Shown in pieces: positions 4,906-45,431 of a stretch of 45,536 nt of DNA. Both the position numbers and the translations under genes were made by a program. Under the pieces are notes generated by a model. That model made no database searches. It saw nothing but the letters and a program-made list of their open reading frames with translations, and was not told the origin of the DNA. The stretch comes from a virus. The DNA lies in the IMG/VR virus record IMGVR_UViG_3300037136_000114, positions 1-45,536 of that record; one strand, written 5' to 3'. How positions within the stretch are numbered: the stretch's first letter is position 1; the number at the start of each line of letters is the position of its first letter.

Positions 4906-5008
4906 GGTTGTTTTCAACACTTTGGAAAACGATTCTGTTTTAAAGGAATTAGGATATGAATTACCAAAGCCTAAAGAATCCAATGAAAAACTCCCAGACC
5001 CTAGTTGA
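4643..5008 (+). CDS. SEC-C motif zinc-binding protein
   Basis: 121 residues starting at ATG 4643 inside the HTH gene. It contains ERNRPCPCLSGRKFKKCC, the CxC...CC pattern of SEC-C zinc-binding motifs (usually CPCGSGKKFKxCC; here Leu replaces the first Gly). Upstream is a Pro-rich stretch with MPIPGFTWNPLL, and the C-terminus is helical and charged. Similar small SEC-C proteins occur between portal and MuF genes of phages. The role is not known. An in-frame GTG/ATG further upstream (track start 4538) would add residues that do not look conserved. Confidence 0.75.
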   Translation: MNKTNVSEQTPSSACAESIPPKPLNRRGQAFTMPIPGFTWNPLLSLERNRPCPCLSGRKFKKCCLMKLPRAVPEKEAARFRALIRMDKVVFNTLENDSVLKELGYELPKPKESNEKLPDPS

Positions 5009-6935
5009 GCTTCCATCAATAAAGGAAACGACGGAGGATTATGAAGCGCTCGAAAGCTACATCAAAAAGATATTCAAGAAAGAAATCTATATCCCCCTTA
5101 TTAGTGAATTTGGTGGAAATAGTAGGGTCATTAAGAACTCGGCAGAAACCTTATTATCTGCAATACAAAGTGGGAGAATACAGTTTTATCGTGGCGTGTT
5201 CTCAGGCGAGTTCAACTCGGAAATCTCAAAAGAGTTAAAAAAGCTTGGCGCTACATGGGATAGGTCTAAAAAGGCATGGAAGCTACCATCGGCTGATTTA
5301 CCGCTTGATGTTCGCATGGCCATCTCAGCCTCAGCCTCCCAGTTTCAGAGAAAGCTTGAAAAAATAGATAGAATTTTGGCGGCCATAAGCCCAGAAGAGT
5401 TAGCCGGATCAATGCAAATGACCAGGTTCTTTGATTCAGCTTTATGGAAGGTTGAAAAGTCCTTAAAAAAATCCATGAAGAATCTTGTTGTTCAACCTGA
5501 GCTAACAAAGGAACAAAGACAACGTATCGCTGATGAATGGCAAAACAACATGAAGCTTTGGATTCATGATTTCACCGAAAAAGAAATAAAAGAACTTCGA
5601 GGTAAGATCCAAAAGACCATATTCGCCGGCAATCGATACGAATCAGCCATTAAGACAATTCAAAAATCCTATCAAGTTTCAGCCAATAAAGCCAAGTTCT
5701 TAGCCAGACAAGAAACGATGCTTTTGATGACTAAGTTCAAGGAAACAAGATACCAAGATGCAGGCGTTAACGAATACAAATGGCGCTGTGTAAAAGGAAC
5801 CCCGCTTCATCCAGTTCGTCCCATGCACAAGGCGCTTAATGACAGGTCCGAGAAGGGTGAGATATTTCGATTCGATCAACCACCTGTTGATGATCCAAAA
5901 GGCGGAAGACATAACCCCTCACAAAATTATAATTGCTTACCTGGCAACACAGTCGTGAGTTTCGACCAACCTGTATTGAAGATATTTAAACGTAGATACA
6001 CGGGAAAAACGGCCATACTTGTCACGGACGACAATGTGGTCATTGAGACGACAGGAAATCATCCTATATTGACGAACTCCGGCTGGCGTCCCGCCAATGA
6101 GGTCAATCTCGGTGATTATCTTTTCAAGCGCGTAGGGGAAAGCATCGATATCAAAAAGATGAATGGCCAATATGTGGAAGCCGGCATTGAGGATATATTT
6201 AGTGCGCTTTCTATTTGTTCTCCAATAATGGTTGACAGACTTTCCAGTTCTGATTTCCACGGCGATGTCATTGAAGACAAGCAAGTCGACATTATAAGTC
6301 CCAATCGCGAATTGATTCTTAACGGGATAACCGAGCTTTATGAAATGTTCGAAGAATTCCTTTTCAAGGGGACCTTCTCTTCTCGAACAAGATTTAGCTC
6401 TTTTGATAAGACTACTACGACGTGGGGGCTTGCCTCTGACAGCTTCATTGGCTTTTTTAACGAGCTTACGCTTTTCCTTCAAAGACATTCTCCCGAATCT
6501 AAGTGTATTAGCCTCCGAGCCAGATCTCTTCTTGATCCCACAAAGCTTAAGCCATCTGGAAATAGTACTCCGTTTAACTCTATATTTTTTAGCGACGGCA
6601 AGTTCACTCATCCCAAACTTGTAATCCTTAATAGCGTGATGATTAATGGGTGTTGTATTCCAGGAAACGAATCTACCGACTCTTTCGATAGAGACTCCCC
6701 TTTCTCTAAGGCGCTCGCTGAGCAAGTCGGGATTGACTTTAAGTCTGCGTCCGATTTCAGCAATAGTGCGCTTGGAGCCTCGATAAAGCCTCTCCGCATC
6801 ATCGATAAGAGTTTCAGGGATTTTAGCGGTCACGTTTACAACCTCCAAACTGGTATGAATTGGTATTATGCTAATAGCCTAGTAATGGCAAATTGTCGCT
6901 GCACGGCCGTTCCTGTTGTGCGATTCAAAAAGTAA
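4956..6935 (+). CDS. MuF-like head morphogenesis protein, interrupted by an intein
   Basis: 659 codons: a 339-residue head protein plus a 320-residue intein (residues 327-646). The extein is mostly helical. Its C-terminus reads YKWRCVKGTPLHPVRPMHKALN, then RHNPSQNYN joined after splicing to CRCTAVPVV, the conserved end of the SPP1 gp7/Mu gpF minor head protein domain. These proteins sit in the prohead next to the portal. The start at 4956 has an upstream AAGGAATTAGGAT element and overlaps the SEC-C gene by 53 bases; ATG 4983 is an alternative start. The insertion lies in the most conserved motif of the family, as expected for an intein. Confidence 0.9.
   Translation: MNYQSLKNPMKNSQTLVELPSIKETTEDYEALESYIKKIFKKEIYIPLISEFGGNSRVIKNSAETLLSAIQSGRIQFYRGVFSGEFNSEISKELKKLGATWDRSKKAWKLPSADLPLDVRMAISASASQFQRKLEKIDRILAAISPEELAGSMQMTRFFDSALWKVEKSLKKSMKNLVVQPELTKEQRQRIADEWQNNMKLWIHDFTEKEIKELRGKIQKTIFAGNRYESAIKTIQKSYQVSANKAKFLARQETMLLMTKFKETRYQDAGVNEYKWRCVKGTPLHPVRPMHKALNDRSEKGEIFRFDQPPVDDPKGGRHNPSQNYNCLPGNTVVSFDQPVLKIFKRRYTGKTAILVTDDNVVIETTGNHPILTNSGWRPANEVNLGDYLFKRVGESIDIKKMNGQYVEAGIEDIFSALSICSPIMVDRLSSSDFHGDVIEDKQVDIISPNRELILNGITELYEMFEEFLFKGTFSSRTRFSSFDKTTTTWGLASDSFIGFFNELTLFLQRHSPESKCISLRARSLLDPTKLKPSGNSTPFNSIFFSDGKFTHPKLVILNSVMINGCCIPGNESTDSFDRDSPFSKALAEQVGIDFKSASDFSNSALGASIKPLRIIDKSFRDFSGHVYNLQTGMNWYYANSLVMANCRCTAVPVVRFKK
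5934..6893 (+). other. MuF intein (Hint domain halves flanking an antisense endonuclease gene)
   Basis: The insertion begins CLPGNTVVSF (Cys1, block A), then block B TTGNHPILTNSGW and GDYLFK. It ends with block F HVYNLQT and block G SLVMAN before the +1 Cys of the extein. Excision rejoins NYN to CRCTAV. The penultimate residue is Ala rather than the usual His. The middle (about residues 70-290) reads as a Ser/Phe/Leu-rich chain on this strand because the complementary strand encodes a Lys/Arg/Glu-rich endonuclease in codon register. The plus-strand frame stays open throughout, so the precursor can still be made and spliced. Confidence 0.85.
5937..6833 (-). CDS. Antisense homing endonuclease inside the MuF intein (HTH plus Vsr/EDxHD-like nuclease)
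   Basis: 298 residues on the strand opposite the intein. The GTG start at 6833 is preceded by a GGAGGTT Shine-Dalgarno 7 bases upstream, located in the DNA for intein block F. Two helix-turn-helix segments are visible (TIAEIGRRLKVNPDLLSERL and ELAVAKKYRVKRSTISRWLK). After a basic linker comes a Vsr/EDxHD-type nuclease core: EKEFFEHFIKLGYPVKNQF, TYNVDLLVFNDIAVEI and TKYILNAGFHILAI. The stop at 5937 directly abuts the first codon of the intein. Composition is typical of a DNA-binding enzyme, whereas the sense strand is not. It probably cleaves intein-less MuF alleles. The specific nuclease family is an inference from motifs. Confidence 0.8.
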   Translation of the reverse strand: MTAKIPETLIDDAERLYRGSKRTIAEIGRRLKVNPDLLSERLRERGVSIERVGRFVSWNTTPINHHAIKDYKFGMSELAVAKKYRVKRSTISRWLKLCGIKKRSGSEANTLRFGRMSLKEKRKLVKKANEAVRGKPPRRSSLIKRAKSCSRREGPLEKEFFEHFIKLGYPVKNQFAIGTYNVDLLVFNDIAVEIRTGKSVNHYWRTNRKRTKYILNAGFHILAIHLFDIDAFPYALEKIITEIDLIGGTPAGVRQYRMISCRLNDHIVVRDKYGRFSRVSTFKYLQYRLVETHDCVAR

Positions 6936-10026: not shown

Positions 10027-10479
10027 TTAAGAGGCTGGGAGAGATCTCAGCCTCGCCCTTCGGCAATTATTGCGAAGATCTCGGCAATGAACACAGCCGC
10101 GTTTCGCTTTGGAGGGACCATGAAAATAAGTATTTTCCGGCGTGAATTCATGGCCGTTAATACAATGGGTTCTTCTAGTGTTGATGCCAGAACGGGAGTC
10201 ACTTCGTTTGTTGTTCTCAGCATGAGAAACGGCCTCAAGATGACTGGGCTTTACGCAAAGATTGTTTTTGCACGTGTGGTCAACTTCAAAGCCTCCGGGT
10301 ATAGGACCATTGAAAAACTCATAAGAAAATCTGTGAGCGTAGCCATTTTTAGAATTAAACCTAAAATAGCCGTATCTTCCTTTTTTGTTTCGCCCACCGG
10401 CTGTAGCTCCAATCCAAAGCCAGCAATCTTTTTTGCCAGTAACTTTAACCTTAAGCCAAAATCTTTCTATTTCACTCAT
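10027..10479 (-). CDS. Free-standing HNH endonuclease
   Basis: 150 residues on the strand opposite the structural genes, filling the gap between the capsid and connector genes. It shows an N-terminal DCWLWIGATAGG segment, RYGYFRF and AHRFSYEFFNGPIP, then the HNH core FEVDHTCKNNLCVKPSHLEAV, followed by Cys pairs (THCINGHEF, GCVHCRDLR) that may bind zinc. This is an HNH_3-type homing endonuclease as found between phage structural genes. Insertion against the direction of transcription marks it as a mobile intruder. ORFs on the plus strand here are shadows. Confidence 0.9.
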   Translation of the reverse strand: MSEIERFWLKVKVTGKKDCWLWIGATAGGRNKKGRYGYFRFNSKNGYAHRFSYEFFNGPIPGGFEVDHTCKNNLCVKPSHLEAVSHAENNKRSDSRSGINTRRTHCINGHEFTPENTYFHGPSKAKRGCVHCRDLRNNCRRARLRSLPAS

Positions 10480-12575: not shown

Positions 12576-14006
12576 ATGGCTAACTTACCCTTTTCAGAAG
12601 TAGTAACGGTATCGGTCGCACAAGCGCCGGTCGGTGCTGCCGAATACAACACTAGCAACATTGCTATTTTTTCAAATGAAGTTTATCAAAGTAGCTTTGG
12701 AAGCCTTGGATATCAAATCTATCTCTCTCCACAACAAGTTGGGATTGATTTCGGCACCAATTCCAATACCTATCAAATGGCAGTGGCGATTTTCTCCCAA
12801 CAACCAAATATTCTTCTTAATGGAGGATACCTGGTCGTTATTCCATTTGTTAATGCGGTTCAAACTTTGGCCCTTTCTGGAGTTGCGGCGAGCGGGACTT
12901 TTGAACTGACTCTTGGGGGGAATACTTCGGCCGCTATCAACTGGAACGATTCGGCTTCTGTTATTCAAGGAAAGCTTGTAGCTGCCTGGACTCAAGTGCC
13001 GGGAGTGGTTGTTTCTGGTTCAATTGCATCTGAATCTCTTGTGATTAGCCTGGATGGTCTATATGGACCTCAAAGTTTAATTACTGTGAGTGCAAATTCG
13101 CTCGAAACATCGGGTTCTGTTGCGATTACCGTAACTCCTTCGACGACAACCGCCGGTGAAACGCTAACCGGAGCAATCAATAGAAGCCAAGGACTTGTTC
13201 AATACTTCGGTATCATGGGAACCTTGATCTTTGATCAGGCCGACACGCTTGCCGCTGCCGCTGTCATCCAAACAATCAATGCCATTGGATTCTTTGGCTC
13301 ACGCACTGAAGCGGATATTGAACCAGGAGGCACGCTTGATCTCCTAAGAAGTGGAACCCTTACACAGAGTCGAGGCCTCTATTATGGGGGTTCAACTGAT
13401 TTGTCGGTCCTTCAGTTTATGGCAGCTTATGCGGGCCGTGGTTTGTCAGTTGTTTTCTCAGCATCACTGACAACTCTGACCATGAATTTGAAACAACTCT
13501 CAGGCATTCAACCTGACCCATCCATGACTCCTGCGATTAAAGCTCTGGCAGAAGCTGCCGGAGCCGATATCTATGCAAGCCTTAATGGAACGCCTGGGGT
13601 TATTTCCTTTGGAGCTAATGATTATTTCGATGATCAATACAATATCCAATGGTTTGTGGGAGCGCTTCAAATCGCTCTTTTTAATCTCTTACAGGCAACC
13701 TCAACCAAGATTGCACAGACCGAGAATGGCATGTATCAGCTTAAAAACGCGGCTCGCCAAGTGTGCGAACAGGCTGTTTCAAACGGATTCCTGGCTCCGG
13801 GGAGCTGGAACAGTTCTGAATTCTTTGGGAATCAGGCGCTATTTATCTCTAATATTTCGCAACAAGGTTACTACATTTATTCGAGTCCCATTTCTGAACA
13901 GTCCGAGAGTATCCGAATTGCTAGAGAAGCCCCGTTAATCCAAGTCGCAGTTAAATATGCAGGAGCCATCCAAACGGCATCGCTCCTTGTGATCGTGAAC
14001 CAATGA
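12576..14006 (+). CDS. Contractile tail sheath protein (DUF3383)
   Basis: 476 residues with a GGAGG Shine-Dalgarno. DUF3383 features are visible: an N-terminal VVTVSVAQAPVGAAEYN, a beta-rich insertion with VSGSIASESLVISLDG, then TRTEADIEPGGTL-like and LYYGGSTDLSVLQFMAAYAG regions and a C-terminal RIAREAPLIQVAVKYAGAI. This is the polymerising sheath that contracts on infection, so the phage is a myovirus morphotype. Its last codons (VNQ stop) are repeated at the end of the next gene. Confidence 0.85.
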   Translation: MANLPFSEVVTVSVAQAPVGAAEYNTSNIAIFSNEVYQSSFGSLGYQIYLSPQQVGIDFGTNSNTYQMAVAIFSQQPNILLNGGYLVVIPFVNAVQTLALSGVAASGTFELTLGGNTSAAINWNDSASVIQGKLVAAWTQVPGVVVSGSIASESLVISLDGLYGPQSLITVSANSLETSGSVAITVTPSTTTAGETLTGAINRSQGLVQYFGIMGTLIFDQADTLAAAAVIQTINAIGFFGSRTEADIEPGGTLDLLRSGTLTQSRGLYYGGSTDLSVLQFMAAYAGRGLSVVFSASLTTLTMNLKQLSGIQPDPSMTPAIKALAEAAGADIYASLNGTPGVISFGANDYFDDQYNIQWFVGALQIALFNLLQATSTKIAQTENGMYQLKNAARQVCEQAVSNGFLAPGSWNSSEFFGNQALFISNISQQGYYIYSSPISEQSESIRIAREAPLIQVAVKYAGAIQTASLLVIVNQ

Positions 14007-14483
14007 CAAAGATTTGTATGAAATGCAAGTTAGAAAAGTCTAAGGAAGATTTTTATAAACATAAGAGCCATTCCGATGGGCTTTATGATTATTGTAAACC
14101 TTGTTGGACTTCCTACCAATATTCTCCAGAGCAAAAACTTAAGACAAACAAGAGAAACATAGAAAGAGGGCACCAAAGTCAAAAAAAATATGAGTGGCTT
14201 AGAAATTACAATCTTAAGAAAAAGTATGGAATTACGCTTAATCAGTATAATCAAAAACTTATAGAACAATCTGGAAACTGTGCTCTATGTGAAAAAAATC
14301 ACAGAGATTGCAAAAATGGATTAGTAGTCGATCACGACCATTCATCCGGGAAAGTAAGAGATTTGCTTTGCGTAAGCTGCAATCTTTTAATTGGTAATTC
14401 TAGGGAAAAATCAGAACTTCTGATAAAGGCCGTTTCTTACCTGGATAAGCACAAAGATAAAAAACTTAAATTAGTGAACCAAT
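13995..14483 (+). repeat. 10-bp direct repeat flanking the endonuclease VII insertion
   Basis: GTGAACCAAT occurs at 13995-14004 (sheath end) and again at 14474-14483 (endonuclease end), offset by 479 bases. In both places it encodes VNQ in frame with the stop codon. After the second copy comes the Shine-Dalgarno AAAGGAG of the tail tube gene, which would originally have followed the sheath stop. Confidence 0.75.
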
Positions 14484-14485
14484 AA
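14003..14485 (+). CDS. Recombination endonuclease VII-like (HNH) gene inserted after the sheath gene
   Basis: 160 residues, starting in an ATGA overlap with the sheath stop. It has zinc-type Cys pairs (CMKCKLEKSKEDFY, YDYCKPCW), YGITLNQYNQKLIEQSGNCALC and the catalytic VVDHDHSSGKVRDLLCVSCN, the pattern of phage T4 endonuclease VII and related HNH mobile enzymes. Composition is more AT- and Lys-rich than its neighbours. It ends in LVNQ, the same residues that end the sheath, encoded by the same bases, so it looks like a precise insertion that recreated the gene end. Confidence 0.9.
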   Translation: MTKICMKCKLEKSKEDFYKHKSHSDGLYDYCKPCWTSYQYSPEQKLKTNKRNIERGHQSQKKYEWLRNYNLKKKYGITLNQYNQKLIEQSGNCALCEKNHRDCKNGLVVDHDHSSGKVRDLLCVSCNLLIGNSREKSELLIKAVSYLDKHKDKKLKLVNQ

Positions 14486-31633: not shown

Positions 31634-31854
31634 CCAAGCTCGCCTAGCTTTTTATAGACTGAATCGAGGGTTTCACGAGCAGCCCTTCCATGCTGACCAT
31701 ACATAGCTTCATTACCGTAACCTTCCAAAGCCCCGATCATCTCTCGCACGATGGCTGCTAAGGAGTCGATTAAGGCTTCTCTTTCACTGTTTCCGTATGA
31801 AGTGCCACATATTTCATCCAATTTCTCCATGGCTTTGGTTTTCGGCGTGGTCAT
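31630..31854 (-). CDS. Hypothetical protein, 74 aa
   Basis: Helical small protein with an N-terminal MTTPKTKAMEKLDEI that is duplicated as a fragment at 32515-32577. The core IDSLAAIVREMIGALEGYG and the C-terminal helix TLDSVYKKLGEL have no recognised family. The start overlaps the stop of the Ala-repeat gene (ATGA). Confidence 0.6.
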   Translation of the reverse strand: MTTPKTKAMEKLDEICGTSYGNSEREALIDSLAAIVREMIGALEGYGNEAMYGQHGRAARETLDSVYKKLGELG

Positions 31855-32540
31855 TTACATTCCTTCAAAAGCCGAAGAAGTTCATTGGCAAACCTTTCAT
31901 AGGCGTAGGCGGCGGCGTAGGCGGCGGCGTAGGCGGTGGCGGCGGCGTAGGCGGTGGCGGAGGCGGCGGCGTTGGCGGAGGCGGCGTAGGCGTAGGCGGT
32001 GGCGGAGGCGGCGGCGTTGGCGGAGGCGGCGTAGGCGTAGGCGGTGGCGTAGGCGGCGGCGTAGGCGGAGGCGGCGGCGTTGGCGGTGGCGGAGGCGTAG
32101 GGTTCAAAATCTTTGGCTGGAGCCTTTCTTTCAATTAACGCGATAACATCTTGAATGTTTTTCTTAATTTCTGGATATTTTTCATGATCAAAAGTATCTA
32201 AGGTGCTTTTTAAAACAAAGATCATGAACGGATCTTTAATCCTTTCAAGATCAACACCTATATGAATGCAGTTTAAGAATTCTGAAGGCCAAACCCTCGC
32301 TCGCTCTAGCAGTAGTCCCTCAAAAATAGTGTCTTCAACTCTTGCCAGCCATTCAGGAATTCCAAGCTCAGTTTCATAATTTTTGTGATTAGAGCCATGA
32401 ATAGTGCAGCCCACAGCACAGCCGCGACCTTTTTCCCAATATTTACCTTTTATGATCTCATCGGCCTCAAAATGTGCAAGCACTCGATTCACATATTTAG
32501 TTTTAACTTTTAGGTCATTGTTGAACGATAGCAAACTCAT
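31851..32540 (-). CDS. Protein with conserved N-terminal domain and C-terminal Ala-rich repeats
   Basis: 229 residues. Residues 1-145 form a folded domain (YWEKGRGCAVGCTIHG, LGIPEWLARVEDTIFEGL, HIGVDLERIKDPF) that I associate with a family of phage and bacterial proteins of unknown function bearing Ala-rich tails. Residues about 148-214 are only A, Y, S, T and N, containing a 15-residue unit repeated twice, and the C-terminus (FANELLRLLKECK) is again normal. A GGAGAGAAAAA Shine-Dalgarno precedes the start. The repeat probably forms a long helix. Pro- and Gly-rich ORFs here on other frames are shadows. Confidence 0.7.
   Translation of the reverse strand: MSLLSFNNDLKVKTKYVNRVLAHFEADEIIKGKYWEKGRGCAVGCTIHGSNHKNYETELGIPEWLARVEDTIFEGLLLERARVWPSEFLNCIHIGVDLERIKDPFMIFVLKSTLDTFDHEKYPEIKKNIQDVIALIERKAPAKDFEPYASATANAAASAYAAAYATAYAYAASANAAASATAYAYAASANAAASATAYAAATAYAAAYAAAYAYERFANELLRLLKECK
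31899..32099 (-). repeat. GC-rich Ala-coding low-complexity repeat
   Basis: About 200 bases of GGCGTA/GGCGGC/GGCGGT-type units (plus-strand sense) encode the 67-residue A/Y/S/T/N tract. It contains two tandem 45-base copies encoding AYAYAASANAAASAT. It is in strong compositional contrast to the AT-rich surroundings. Confidence 0.85.
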
Positions 32541-32971: not shown

Positions 32972-33049
32972 TCACCTACTAATTTGATTATTTTGAAATA
33001 CGATTTCCGCAGCCCGTAGGAGCCCTCTGCGAATCTCAGCTCTGGTCAT
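32972..33049 (-). CDS. 25-aa ORF after the hexamer repeat
   Basis: ATG 33049 follows the repeat gene's stop by one base and encodes MTRAEIRRGLLRAAEIVFQN plus a short tail, a helical pattern common at the end of small phage proteins. It is also in frame with a Thr-Ala reading of the repeat that starts at TTG 33289, so it may instead be the C-terminus of a 105-residue protein. Confidence 0.4.
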   Translation of the reverse strand: MTRAEIRRGLLRAAEIVFQNNQISR

Positions 33050-33050
33050 G

Positions 33051-33293
33051 CTAATAGCCGTAGCCGTAGCCGTCGCCGTAGCCGTCGCCGTAGCCGTCGC
33101 CGTCGCCGTAGCCGTAGCCGTAGCCGTTGCCGTTGCCGTCGCCGTTGCCGTTGCCGTAGCCGTAGCCGTCGCCGTAGCCGTTGCCGTTGCCGTAGCCGTA
33201 GCCGTAGCCGTCGCCGTAGCCGTTGCCGTAGCCGTAGCCGTTGCCGTCGCCGTAGCCGTAGCCGTGACTATTTTGGGATTCGTCCCCAATCAT
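33051..33293 (-). CDS. Gly-Tyr/Asp/Asn dipeptide-repeat protein
   Basis: 80 residues from ATG 33293, which overlaps the stop of the preceding gene (TAATG). After MIGDESQNSH the protein is a run of about 35 dipeptides G-Y, G-D or G-N, with no other residue. Gly-rich proteins with GYG/GDG units are common in phage early regions; their role is unknown. The same DNA is open as (Thr-Ala)n in a second frame. I prefer this frame because of its coupled ATG. Confidence 0.55.
   Translation of the reverse strand: MIGDESQNSHGYGYGDGNGYGYGNGYGDGYGYGYGNGNGYGDGYGYGNGNGDGNGNGYGYGYGDGDGYGDGYGDGYGYGY
33056..33265 (-). repeat. Hexanucleotide tandem repeat, about 35 units
   Basis: 210 bases of GGC[T/G/A]AC on the minus strand. 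The only variable base is the fourth, which is T, G or A but never C. All three frames on this strand's direction of interest and one frame on the other strand stay open. There are no spacers, so it is not a CRISPR array. Confidence 0.9.
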
Positions 33294-33637
33294 TATTTCA
33301 GATACTTTTCCCATTTGGCCTCATTGCATTTAATTGAACCGATAACTGTCAATTCGTGGAATGAAACTTCGGGAACAGTATCAAGCTTTGTGTTTGATGT
33401 AGGGCCGCTTTCGGCAATTTCGCCAAGTCCCTTTGACGTTCCCCACACGCGAATGGTCGCAGCGTTATTAAGCCTCATTGAGCTTCCCTTTTTAGTTAGG
33501 GTTCCAACAAATATCCACCCACGCTGAAGAATCACTATCTGCGTGCCCAAATCTTCAATGCAGCAGCTCGATTCATTGCCCTGAAAGAGGCTTTTTAACT
33601 GTTTAATTTCACCCAAAGTTAGGTCGTCTAGTTTCAT
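33293..33637 (-). CDS. Hypothetical protein, 114 aa
   Basis: AAGGAGAAAAC precedes ATG 33637. The first part is helical (LDDLTLGEIKQLKSLFQ), then beta strands with TQIVILQRGWIFVGTLTKKG and MRLNNAATIRVWGTSKGLGEI. This small beta protein type is frequent in phage early operons; function unknown. Confidence 0.65.
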   Translation of the reverse strand: MKLDDLTLGEIKQLKSLFQGNESSCCIEDLGTQIVILQRGWIFVGTLTKKGSSMRLNNAATIRVWGTSKGLGEIAESGPTSNTKLDTVPEVSFHELTVIGSIKCNEAKWEKYLK

Positions 33638-43623: not shown

Positions 43624-43806
43624 TTGCTAGAAAAGCTTGGGTTATCGTTTACAGCCATTTTTAACAGTGCAAGAACCACGGTCGATGGTGGATGGAGAAT
43701 AACCTTTGATCTCTCAAACACCGATTCAGACAAAATTTCCGAAATCGCTGCCCTTCAACATCAACTTTTACAAATAGCTATTATCCCAATTGGTGATTCT
43801 GAGTGA
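43624..43806 (+). CDS. Hypothetical protein, 60 aa
   Basis: TTG start at 43624 after GGGGGAGGG. FTAIFNSARTTVDGGWRITFDL then DKISEIAALQHQLLQIAIIP resembles small phage proteins of a beta-strand plus helix fold. The stop overlaps the methyltransferase start (GTGA). Confidence 0.6.
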   Translation: MLEKLGLSFTAIFNSARTTVDGGWRITFDLSNTDSDKISEIAALQHQLLQIAIIPIGDSE

Positions 43807-45431
43807 TTCATCACGGCTGTTGTCTTGATATTCTAAAAACTCTCCAAGAAAATTCTGTGGATGCAATTGTAACCGACCCTCCATATGGCTTAAGCTTTAT
43901 GGGCAAGAAATGGGATTACGATGTGCCTAAGGTCGAGGTATGGCGTGAGATCATGAGGGTTTTGAAGCCCGGGGGGCACGCACTCATCGCTTGCGGCACA
44001 CGCACGCAGCACAGGATGGCCGTTAACATTGAGGACGCGGGCTTTGAGATCCGGGATGTAATCAGCTATTTATACGGGAGTGGATTCCCAAAATCTCTCA
44101 ACGTCCAAAAGTCTGCGCGATCGGCGGGGATTGGTTGTGACTGCGAACCGAAAGCCAAACTCGAAATGCCCTCAATGTCTAATGCCAATGTACAAAAGAC
44201 CGTTTCAATTGAAGAGACAGAAGACGGCTCTTTGCAGTCGGGCTTGCAGGAACAAAACATACAAACATCTAGGACCGAGGGGGCCAAACCCGAATCTTCA
44301 AATGGAAAAGAATCCTGCATGGAAGGGCGGAGTGACCTTCAAGAGAACCAAGGGGAATTACATCGGACCGAAGTATGTGCGATGTCCGAAGCAATTCTTG
44401 GCGATGGCACGCAAGGACGGTTACATAATGGAACATCGTTTAGTGATGGCGCAGAGCTTGGGTCGGATGCTGAGCCGAATAGAAGTAGTTCACCACAAGG
44501 ACCACAACACTCGGAACAACTTAATAACCAATCTGGAATTATTTGCGAACAACGGCGAACACAAACGTGCGGAAGCTGTGGCAAAGCAATCTTTGACCCA
44601 GGTCTAGGCACAGCACTTAAGCCCGCATGTGAGTTCTGGACGCTAGCCCGTAAACCGATCTCAGAGAAGACCGTTGCCGCGAATGTATTGAAGTGGGGGA
44701 CGGGGGGACTCAATATTGATGCGAGTAGGGTTAGTGGCGAATATAAATGGAGAGCAAGCGACTCAAGGGATTTTGGAGAATCCTCATTTAAGTCCGGTTC
44801 ATTTGGCGATGGGCCCAATGCTCAAGGCCGCTTCCCCGCGAACCTAATCCTAGATGAAGAAGCAGCGGCTATGCTTGATGAGCAGACGAAGAATTTACAT
44901 GGGGCAGGGTTTAAAATTCATGATAATTTTGTGGGAAATAAGGGGAGCAAAAATATAAATCTTGGGGGTGGAATTACAAGCAATAGATTCGGCGACACCG
45001 GCGGTGCATCCCGCTTTTTCTACGTAGCTAAAGCGTCAAAAAGCGAGAGAAACGCTGGGCTTGAAATAGCTTCAAAGCAAAACGCTCAAATTGATGGCGC
45101 TATTTTAAATGAAGATGACTCTGGAAATCCAAACACAAGGGGCCGAAAAGCTAATCCCATAGATTGCGTTACCCAAAATAAAAAACTGCATAAAGAAGGT
45201 AATTTTCACCCCACTGTTAAACCCATAAAGCTCATGGCCTATCTCTGCCGCCTAATCACGCCTCCAAACGGCATAATCCTCGATCCATTCATGGGATCTG
45301 GCTCAACAGGAGTTGCGGCTAAGAACCTAGGCTTTGAATTCATCGGCATTGAGCGTGAAGCTGAATATGTCGAAATCGCTAAGCGTAGAATCATGAAAAT
45401 AACACAAGATTACAGCGAAAGACTGTTATGA
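43803..45431 (+). CDS. DNA methyltransferase (beta-class) with an internal HNH gene
   Basis: 542 residues from GTG 43803. The DPPY motif TDPPYGLSF (25-33) and the FxGxG-type SAM motif DPFMGSGSTG (494-503) occur in the order of class beta amino-methyltransferases (N6-adenine or N4-cytosine). Between them are ALKPACEFWTLARKPISEKT and a long insertion. Residues about 110-262 read as a Ser/Gln/Glu-rich chain because another frame here encodes an HNH nuclease. That region is bounded by Cys motifs (GCDCE and TCGSCGK), perhaps halves of one zinc ribbon. The enzyme may protect phage DNA from restriction. Confidence 0.9.
   Translation: MIHHGCCLDILKTLQENSVDAIVTDPPYGLSFMGKKWDYDVPKVEVWREIMRVLKPGGHALIACGTRTQHRMAVNIEDAGFEIRDVISYLYGSGFPKSLNVQKSARSAGIGCDCEPKAKLEMPSMSNANVQKTVSIEETEDGSLQSGLQEQNIQTSRTEGAKPESSNGKESCMEGRSDLQENQGELHRTEVCAMSEAILGDGTQGRLHNGTSFSDGAELGSDAEPNRSSSPQGPQHSEQLNNQSGIICEQRRTQTCGSCGKAIFDPGLGTALKPACEFWTLARKPISEKTVAANVLKWGTGGLNIDASRVSGEYKWRASDSRDFGESSFKSGSFGDGPNAQGRFPANLILDEEAAAMLDEQTKNLHGAGFKIHDNFVGNKGSKNINLGGGITSNRFGDTGGASRFFYVAKASKSERNAGLEIASKQNAQIDGAILNEDDSGNPNTRGRKANPIDCVTQNKKLHKEGNFHPTVKPIKLMAYLCRLITPPNGIILDPFMGSGSTGVAAKNLGFEFIGIEREAEYVEIAKRRIMKITQDYSERLL
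44137..44607 (+). CDS. HNH endonuclease encoded in a second frame inside the methyltransferase gene
   Basis: 156 residues from GTG 44137 (GGCGGGGA upstream); the frame is open from 44080. SKCPQCLMPMYKRPFQLKRQ, TALCSRACRNK is a zinc-type N-terminus. KDGYIMEHRLVMAQSLGRML and IEVVHHKDHNTRNNLITNLE is a standard phage HNH core, followed by LFANNGEHKRAEA. It is in the +1 frame relative to the methyltransferase over its whole length, and both frames are open. This is a nested homing-type endonuclease gene. Confidence 0.8.
   Translation: MTANRKPNSKCPQCLMPMYKRPFQLKRQKTALCSRACRNKTYKHLGPRGPNPNLQMEKNPAWKGGVTFKRTKGNYIGPKYVRCPKQFLAMARKDGYIMEHRLVMAQSLGRMLSRIEVVHHKDHNTRNNLITNLELFANNGEHKRAEAVAKQSLTQV

Follow-up and report, generated by a model that had tools for sequence, protein, structure and literature searches.

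Mobile inteins of the canonical kind consist of a Hint splicing domain inserted at a conserved motif of the host protein and of a resident endonuclease, of the LAGLIDADG or HNH type, encoded in frame with it, and alleles lacking the intein (empty alleles) occur. The intein described here, in the gene for a MuF-like minor head protein of a virus, shares all of these traits except the frame: its predicted endonuclease comes from a distinct gene on the other strand, which overlaps the splicing domain and has a start codon, a Shine–Dalgarno (SD) sequence and a putative promoter of its own. Dassa and co-authors reportedly described, in 2009, fractured genes, in which the intein is split and a free-standing gene for a Vsr-like endonuclease interrupts the host gene; the association of a Vsr-like endonuclease with phage inteins is common to both cases, but the MuF gene and its intein are continuous, the sense ORF (659 aa) having been tested and found unbroken. 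Antisense homing endonuclease genes occur in nuclear rDNA group I introns, inserted in a peripheral RNA element (PMC9548176); these are likewise antisense endonuclease genes inside a mobile self-splicing element, whereas most of the MuF intein DNA is protein-coding on both strands. The ShiLan element is an out-of-frame HNH endonuclease in a phage methylase, on the same strand and without a splicing domain (PMC11855218); the MuF intein resembles it, an endonuclease being hidden in both cases in a second frame of an open insert within a phage gene, but does not qualify as an element of that type, having both a Hint domain and an opposite-strand endonuclease. Finally, in structure the antisense product is best matched by I-Bth0305I, an EDxHD/Vsr-like homing endonuclease encoded by a group I intron (PMC3943268), which also joins a nuclease to modular DNA-binding domains; the MuF nuclease differs in that its gene is antisense to an intein and in its two N-terminal helix-turn-helix (HTH) regions and C-terminal hairpin. 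A literature search found no account of an endonuclease gene lying antisense within an intein; a preprint on non-canonical actinobacteriophage inteins (10.1101/2025.01.02.630785) may overlap, and was outside the reach of that search.

The DNA analysed here (hereafter the window) is the stretch of 45,536 nucleotides formed by the IMG/VR virus record IMGVR_UViG_3300037136_000114; the features of the locus are collected in Table 1. The nearest relative found of the MuF gene product is gp47 of Bdellovibrio phage phi1422, which is 47% identical and has no intein: its empty site reads TAC AAC^TGC CGA where the window has TAT AAT[intein]TGT CGC. The insertion runs from the Cys1 codon (5934-5936) to that of the terminal Asn320 (6891-6893), with Cys as the +1 residue, and these boundaries are those of the original prediction. 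The window has all residues of a class 1 intein (C1, the block B sequence TGNH, of the form TxxH, N320 and the +1 Cys), and C1, T40, H43 and N320 are unchanged across 54 loci. Matches of the sense intein to the Intein_splicing and intein_Nterm profiles were under the curated cut-off. In the AF2 model, the sense product takes a Hint fold, each half of which has a pLDDT of about 95, and residues 77-130 are modelled with a confidence lower than that of the Hint halves but still good; inteins were the top Foldseek matches of this model, the Mtu RecA intein first (E 2.6e-3), with modest E-values. A profile search of the sense frame of the intein gave no match to an endonuclease family, and residues 140-271 are disordered in the model and show little sense conservation, so that the canonical arrangement, with the endonuclease in the frame of the splicing domain, is not met. 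On sequence and modelled structure, the sense product is a class-1-type intein, splicing itself being inferred, and the proposed Hint blocks at both intein ends are supported by homologues, selection tests and structure. The sense motif FHGD (within 6162-6323), of unknown function, is conserved and folded in the model, and its codons, read in antisense, specify the VAVE catalytic strand of the nuclease.

Table 1. Features of the MuF intein locus, in window coordinates, and (last row) of the IME285 gene pair, in the coordinates of that locus (L170)
Feature	Position	Strand	Support or remark
MuF-like minor head protein gene (extein host)	4956-6935	+	Pfam Phage_Mu_F 3.7e-10; phrog_15127 7.8e-68
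Intein, 320 aa, Cys1 to Asn320, then +1 Cys	5934-6893	+	Empty site in phi1422
Hint domain, N-terminal part, residues 1-70 (blocks A and B, TGNH)	5934-6143	+	AF2 pLDDT 86-98; sense-constrained
Sense element, residues 77-130, with conserved FHGD (6255-6266)	6162-6323	+	Constraint in both frames
Sense linker, residues 140-271, predicted disordered	6351-6746	+	AF2 pLDDT <50; sense excess small
Hint domain, C-terminal part, residues 280-320 (blocks F and G)	6771-6893	+	AF2 pLDDT 89-97
Antisense homing-endonuclease-like gene, 298 aa, GTG start 6833-6831, TAA stop 5939-5937	5937-6833	-	
First HTH region, residues 7-44	6702-6815	-	AF2; Pfam HTH matches in homologues
Second HTH, residues 65-97	6543-6641	-	Pfam HTH_23 3.1e-5; AF2
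EDxHD/Vsr-like nuclease domain, residues 155-247 (E157, Q174, YNxD183, AVE193)	6093-6371	-	MTES_1575 match; conservation; Foldseek 3r3p
C-terminal beta-hairpin, residues 256-292, opposite splicing blocks A/B	5958-6068	-	AF2 pLDDT about 95
SD sequence GGAGG	6842-6846	-	8 nt upstream of GTG
Weak sigma-70-like promoter, TTGCCA (6891-6886), 15 nt, CATAAT (6870-6865)	6865-6891	-	Inside intein; custom scan
IME285 (L170) pair: free-standing nuclease homologue convergent with intein-less MuF gene	455-1348 and 1342-2055	+ and -	7 bp overlap

Other parts of the window also hold endonuclease genes. The terminase large subunit gene (222-2726, +) has an ordinary in-frame LAGLIDADG intein, and the same phage therefore has both a canonical intein and one with an antisense endonuclease. 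A DNA methylase ORF (43803-45431, +) is overlapped, across its insert region and in another forward frame, by an HNH_3 endonuclease ORF (44080-44607, +; 1.3e-7), an overlap that resembles the published out-of-frame HNH insertion of the ShiLan type (PMC11855218). By eye, two more HNH-like ORFs were seen among the structural genes (10027-10479, -, and 14003-14485, +). Low-complexity repeats are present at 31851-32540 (-; Ala/Tyr-rich) and 33048-33527 (+; a run of Val-Ala dipeptides).

The antisense frame of the MuF intein is codon-aligned with the sense frame and both are open throughout, as had been predicted. The prediction also had the nuclease encoded opposite the middle 300 codons of the intein and ending exactly at the first intein codon; the antisense gene spans 298 of the 320 intein codons, with its last ~45 residues overlapping splicing blocks A/B, and its stop lies opposite intein codon 2. 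AF2, with sequences from this window and the IMG/VR loci only, modelled the product confidently over almost its full length (mean pLDDT 92.3). Foldseek placed 3r3p, the catalytic domain of I-Bth0305I, at ranks 1-2 in the PDB (E 1.2e-3 and 1.6e-3, prob 1.0; TM 0.67 by target), and a profile search with the antisense protein matched 3hrl and 3r3p. Among 81 antisense homologues, Pfam matches were obtained to HTH_7 (39/81), MTES_1575 (28; best 4e-9), DUF559 (10) and NUMOD1 (2), the MTES_1575 score of the window's own nuclease being under the Pfam cut-off. An acidic core of E157, D183 and E193 is conserved in the homologues; as to the H-D pair of the EDxHD signature, a WH motif was recognized by eye only in some members (e.g. 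L030, L127 and L172) and is not clear in the protein of the window. The hairpin region aligns also in the free-standing homologue (see below). PADLOC returned a single weak match, to mad1, in the HTH only. From sequence and modelling, the antisense ORF is a real gene and its predicted product an EDxHD/Vsr-type endonuclease with two HTH regions, cleavage being inferred; this identification, which had been made at the outset, is upheld by homologues, selection tests and structure.

A tblastn search with the antisense protein matched 95 phage records, and further loci came from IMG/VR scans; for collection scans, close pairs took the place of alignment A1, which was too divergent. In the tblastn records examined the antisense gene lies opposite MuF-like head genes, the exception being Acinetobacter phage IME285 (see below). 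Hosts of the phages (or prophage-like records) with this arrangement belong to the Pseudomonadota, Actinomycetota, Campylobacterota and Chloroflexota, and a search of genome contigs gave matches only in Aggregatibacter and one MAG. When loci were collected by sense similarity alone, 80 were found, and the antisense nuclease was present in all 58 that were analysed after duplicates were left out (E 1e-40 to 1e-117). Across a set of 102 loci, mostly allelic MuF inteins, 20 of 28,158 antisense codons in the nuclease region are stops, all of them close to the gene's 3′-end; the stop rate in the exteins of the same genes would give ~806. In the extein of the window's own gene, 21 of 259 antisense codons are stops, which gives an open run of 296 codons a p of about 1e-11. 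The original prediction would have fallen had relatives lacked the antisense ORF or acquired stops there at a neutral rate; both frames are open in 102/102 loci, without a single premature antisense stop. No decayed antisense copies were detected among these 102 loci, though the search favoured full-length relatives. Such an absence is unusual for homing endonucleases. Two-way coding is, by these comparisons, conserved in about 100 related viral loci.

By codon resampling, one protein was held fixed and the similarity in the other frame was compared with the resampled null, using 20 mutually distant loci. In the middle of the intein, antisense similarity was 0.82 against a null of -0.10 (z 67) and sense similarity 0.06 against -0.22; the reverse was seen at the ends (blocks A/B and F/G), with z 35-49 for the sense frame. 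Differences at sense codon positions 1/2/3 crossed over likewise, being.447/.215/.376 in the middle and.336/.187/.436 in blocks A/B. The two-strand dN/dS check suggested with the original prediction gave a simple overlapping-gene omega that crosses over: antisense 0.18 and sense 0.39 in the core, antisense 0.33 and sense 0.15 in blocks A/B. The pairs are non-independent, and in no region does the weaker value by itself show selection; a reading of the core sense omega of 0.39 as sense selection was rejected because second-position changes were more radical than first-position ones. At single residues, antisense Asp183 is kept in 91/91 loci (GAC48/GAT43) while the sense residue flips between V and I, and Glu157 in 88/91 (GAA49/GAG39) while the sense residue flips between F and L; Tyr180 and Asn181 follow the same pattern, the residue being kept while the codon varies. 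For V190-A191-V192-E193 the codons themselves are nearly fixed, since the sense FHGD is also conserved, and these codons are, as far as sequence comparison can tell, constrained in both directions. Constraint, as estimated here, swaps strand, the intein ends being held in the sense and the middle in the antisense frame, and the sequence of the predicted sense linker is set mainly by the antisense gene.

The most likely antisense start, from the sequence, is GTG 6833-6831, directly opposite the block F His codon; it was preferred over the TTG at 6848, the start given by the ORF caller, which adjoins the SD. The SD had been predicted within block F and is there (GGAGG, 6846-6842). In 91 loci the start codon opposite the block F His is ATG in 83 and GTG in 7, the His codon is CAT in 92% (45% in exteins; p=2e-21), the block F Leu is mostly CTC (60), a codon used for 18% of extein Leu, and GGAGG, GAGG or GGAG is found 8-9 nt before the start in 54. 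A standard scan of the window's minus strand found no promoter because that scan does not allow the 15-nt spacer of the weak candidate in Table 1. Over the relatives, the sigma-70 promoter excess upstream of the start, inside the intein, was 3.27+-0.38 bits over synonymous resampling, with three controls at about 0, and the enriched position was most often 32-36 nt before the start; matches of at least 11/12 occur in 18/91 loci (null 2.4%), and nine loci have an exact TTGACA-17/18-TATAAT in the same place as the window's weak promoter. In all these promoter, start and SD counts, related loci are not independent. The antisense stop lies inside the intein in 84/89 loci, a median of 5 codons from Cys1, and the antisense gene is thus contained within the element. 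The putative promoter, ribosome-binding site and start codon lie opposite the splicing-essential blocks F/G, expression being inferred.

Codon-aligned antisense ORFs open readily where TTA, CTA and TCA are rare, and at the ends of the intein the sense blocks force some similarity in antisense; the antisense ORF could then be a shadow of the sense intein, its frame kept open by codon bias and its conservation a mimic of sense conservation. We regard this as virtually excluded: at extein codon usage ~806 stops would be due and 20, all terminal, were counted, antisense similarity is far above the null given the sense protein, the HTH, MTES_1575, DUF559 and NUMOD1 profiles are matched, the product is modelled with a pLDDT of 92 and a match to I-Bth0305I, and a free-standing homologue exists without an intein. 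Only slightly more room is left for a reading on the lines of ShiLan, the element of phage methylases, in which an endonuclease gene was inserted into MuF in reverse and the forward frame stays open but no splicing occurs. HNH insertions that are out of frame and lack a splicing domain are known (PMC11855218) and the sense middle of the MuF intein is disordered, but the conservation of Cys1, TxxH, the terminal Asn and the +1 Cys, the strong sense constraint at both ends and the confidently modelled Hint fold, with intein matches in the PDB, make this reading very improbable.

A third possibility, a genuine nuclease that has ceased to drive homing, is unlikely too, if less remote. The nuclease would be kept for phage competition or antisense control of MuF, the intein spreading only by phage recombination; the lack of decayed copies in the 102 loci does suggest steady selection, and the Acinetobacter phage retains a free-standing copy beside an intein-less MuF gene. 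However, the intein is sporadic among near-identical MuF genes, an empty allele being found at 98% extein identity (fEg-Eco19 versus Escherichia phage Snoke), and it is more alike than its flanks: between Snoke and a Salmonella phage the intein DNA is 97.4% identical and the flanks 88.5% and 79.1%, although some of this difference may stem from double coding. The fold is also that of a homing endonuclease, and the whole gene is inside the intein in nearly all loci. Homing is inferred from the empty alleles and from intein identity above that of the flanks.

We hold with high confidence to the explanation as a whole, a splicing intein with an antisense homing endonuclease, in which transcription, splicing, cleavage and homing are all inferred. 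Read forward, the element would give a Hint splicing domain (residues 1-70, 77-130 and 280-320) with a disordered loop, and the intein would excise itself from the MuF head protein. The backward, codon-aligned reading, from signals opposite blocks F/G, would give the two-HTH EDxHD/Vsr-type endonuclease, which is inferred to bind and cut the intein-less MuF gene near the conserved NC|RC codons; repair from the intein-bearing copy would then copy in the whole double-coded element. It is only by inference that mobility requires both products. A further proposal, which may well be right but for which we would not claim the better part of the evidence, is that of a bidirectional mobile element whose intein and endonuclease share about 93% of base pairs, with the endonuclease signals antisense to the C-terminal splicing blocks, and in which double coding shields the endonuclease from the usual decay. 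The endonuclease would be hard to lose without damage to the splicing domain, hence the possible shielding, and this, if true, would explain the absence of decayed copies.

The free-standing homologue of IME285 is an annotated protein of 297 aa, 32% identical over its full length to the Aaphi23 antisense protein, with a profile score of 237 bits; its opposite frames contain 12, 12 and 24 stops. By inference, the antisense gene began as a free-standing endonuclease gene that converged on MuF, as the one in IME285 does, and came to overlap the intein on the opposite strand; a free-standing homologue beside an intein-less target is a plausible intermediate. In L072 (4018-4854, +) a second MuF intein, in the same gene, has an antisense nuclease of a different type, with zinc fingers and DUF559/Vsr, preceded by TTGCTT-17-TATAAT and CAGGAG (read by eye), and a 50% homologue of this nuclease is free-standing in L154, with 7-9 opposite stops; the antisense arrangement therefore probably arose more than once. 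Among the other loci, L127 has two inteins in one MuF gene, each with an antisense HTH-nuclease gene, and Escherichia phage fEg-Eco06 (L008) and Mycobacterium phage Sejanus (L009) have the same kind of intein at a different MuF site. The DNA-binding module of the antisense nuclease has a match in L070, in the C-terminal HTH plus KSEAEKLKW segment of a free-standing HNH endonuclease.

Annotations of a few phages (Snoke, fEg-Eco06) do record the intein itself, and the antisense ORF is listed as a hypothetical protein in Salmonella phage PK1; the two-way arrangement has apparently gone unannotated, and many 'capsid protein' annotations conceal an unannotated nuclease gene. With two unrelated folds, a self-splicing domain and a nuclease, encoded by the two strands of one 960-bp stretch, the MuF intein represents a new packing of a selfish element, and offers a natural, well-sampled system for the study of antisense gene overlap and of how homing endonuclease genes join inteins.
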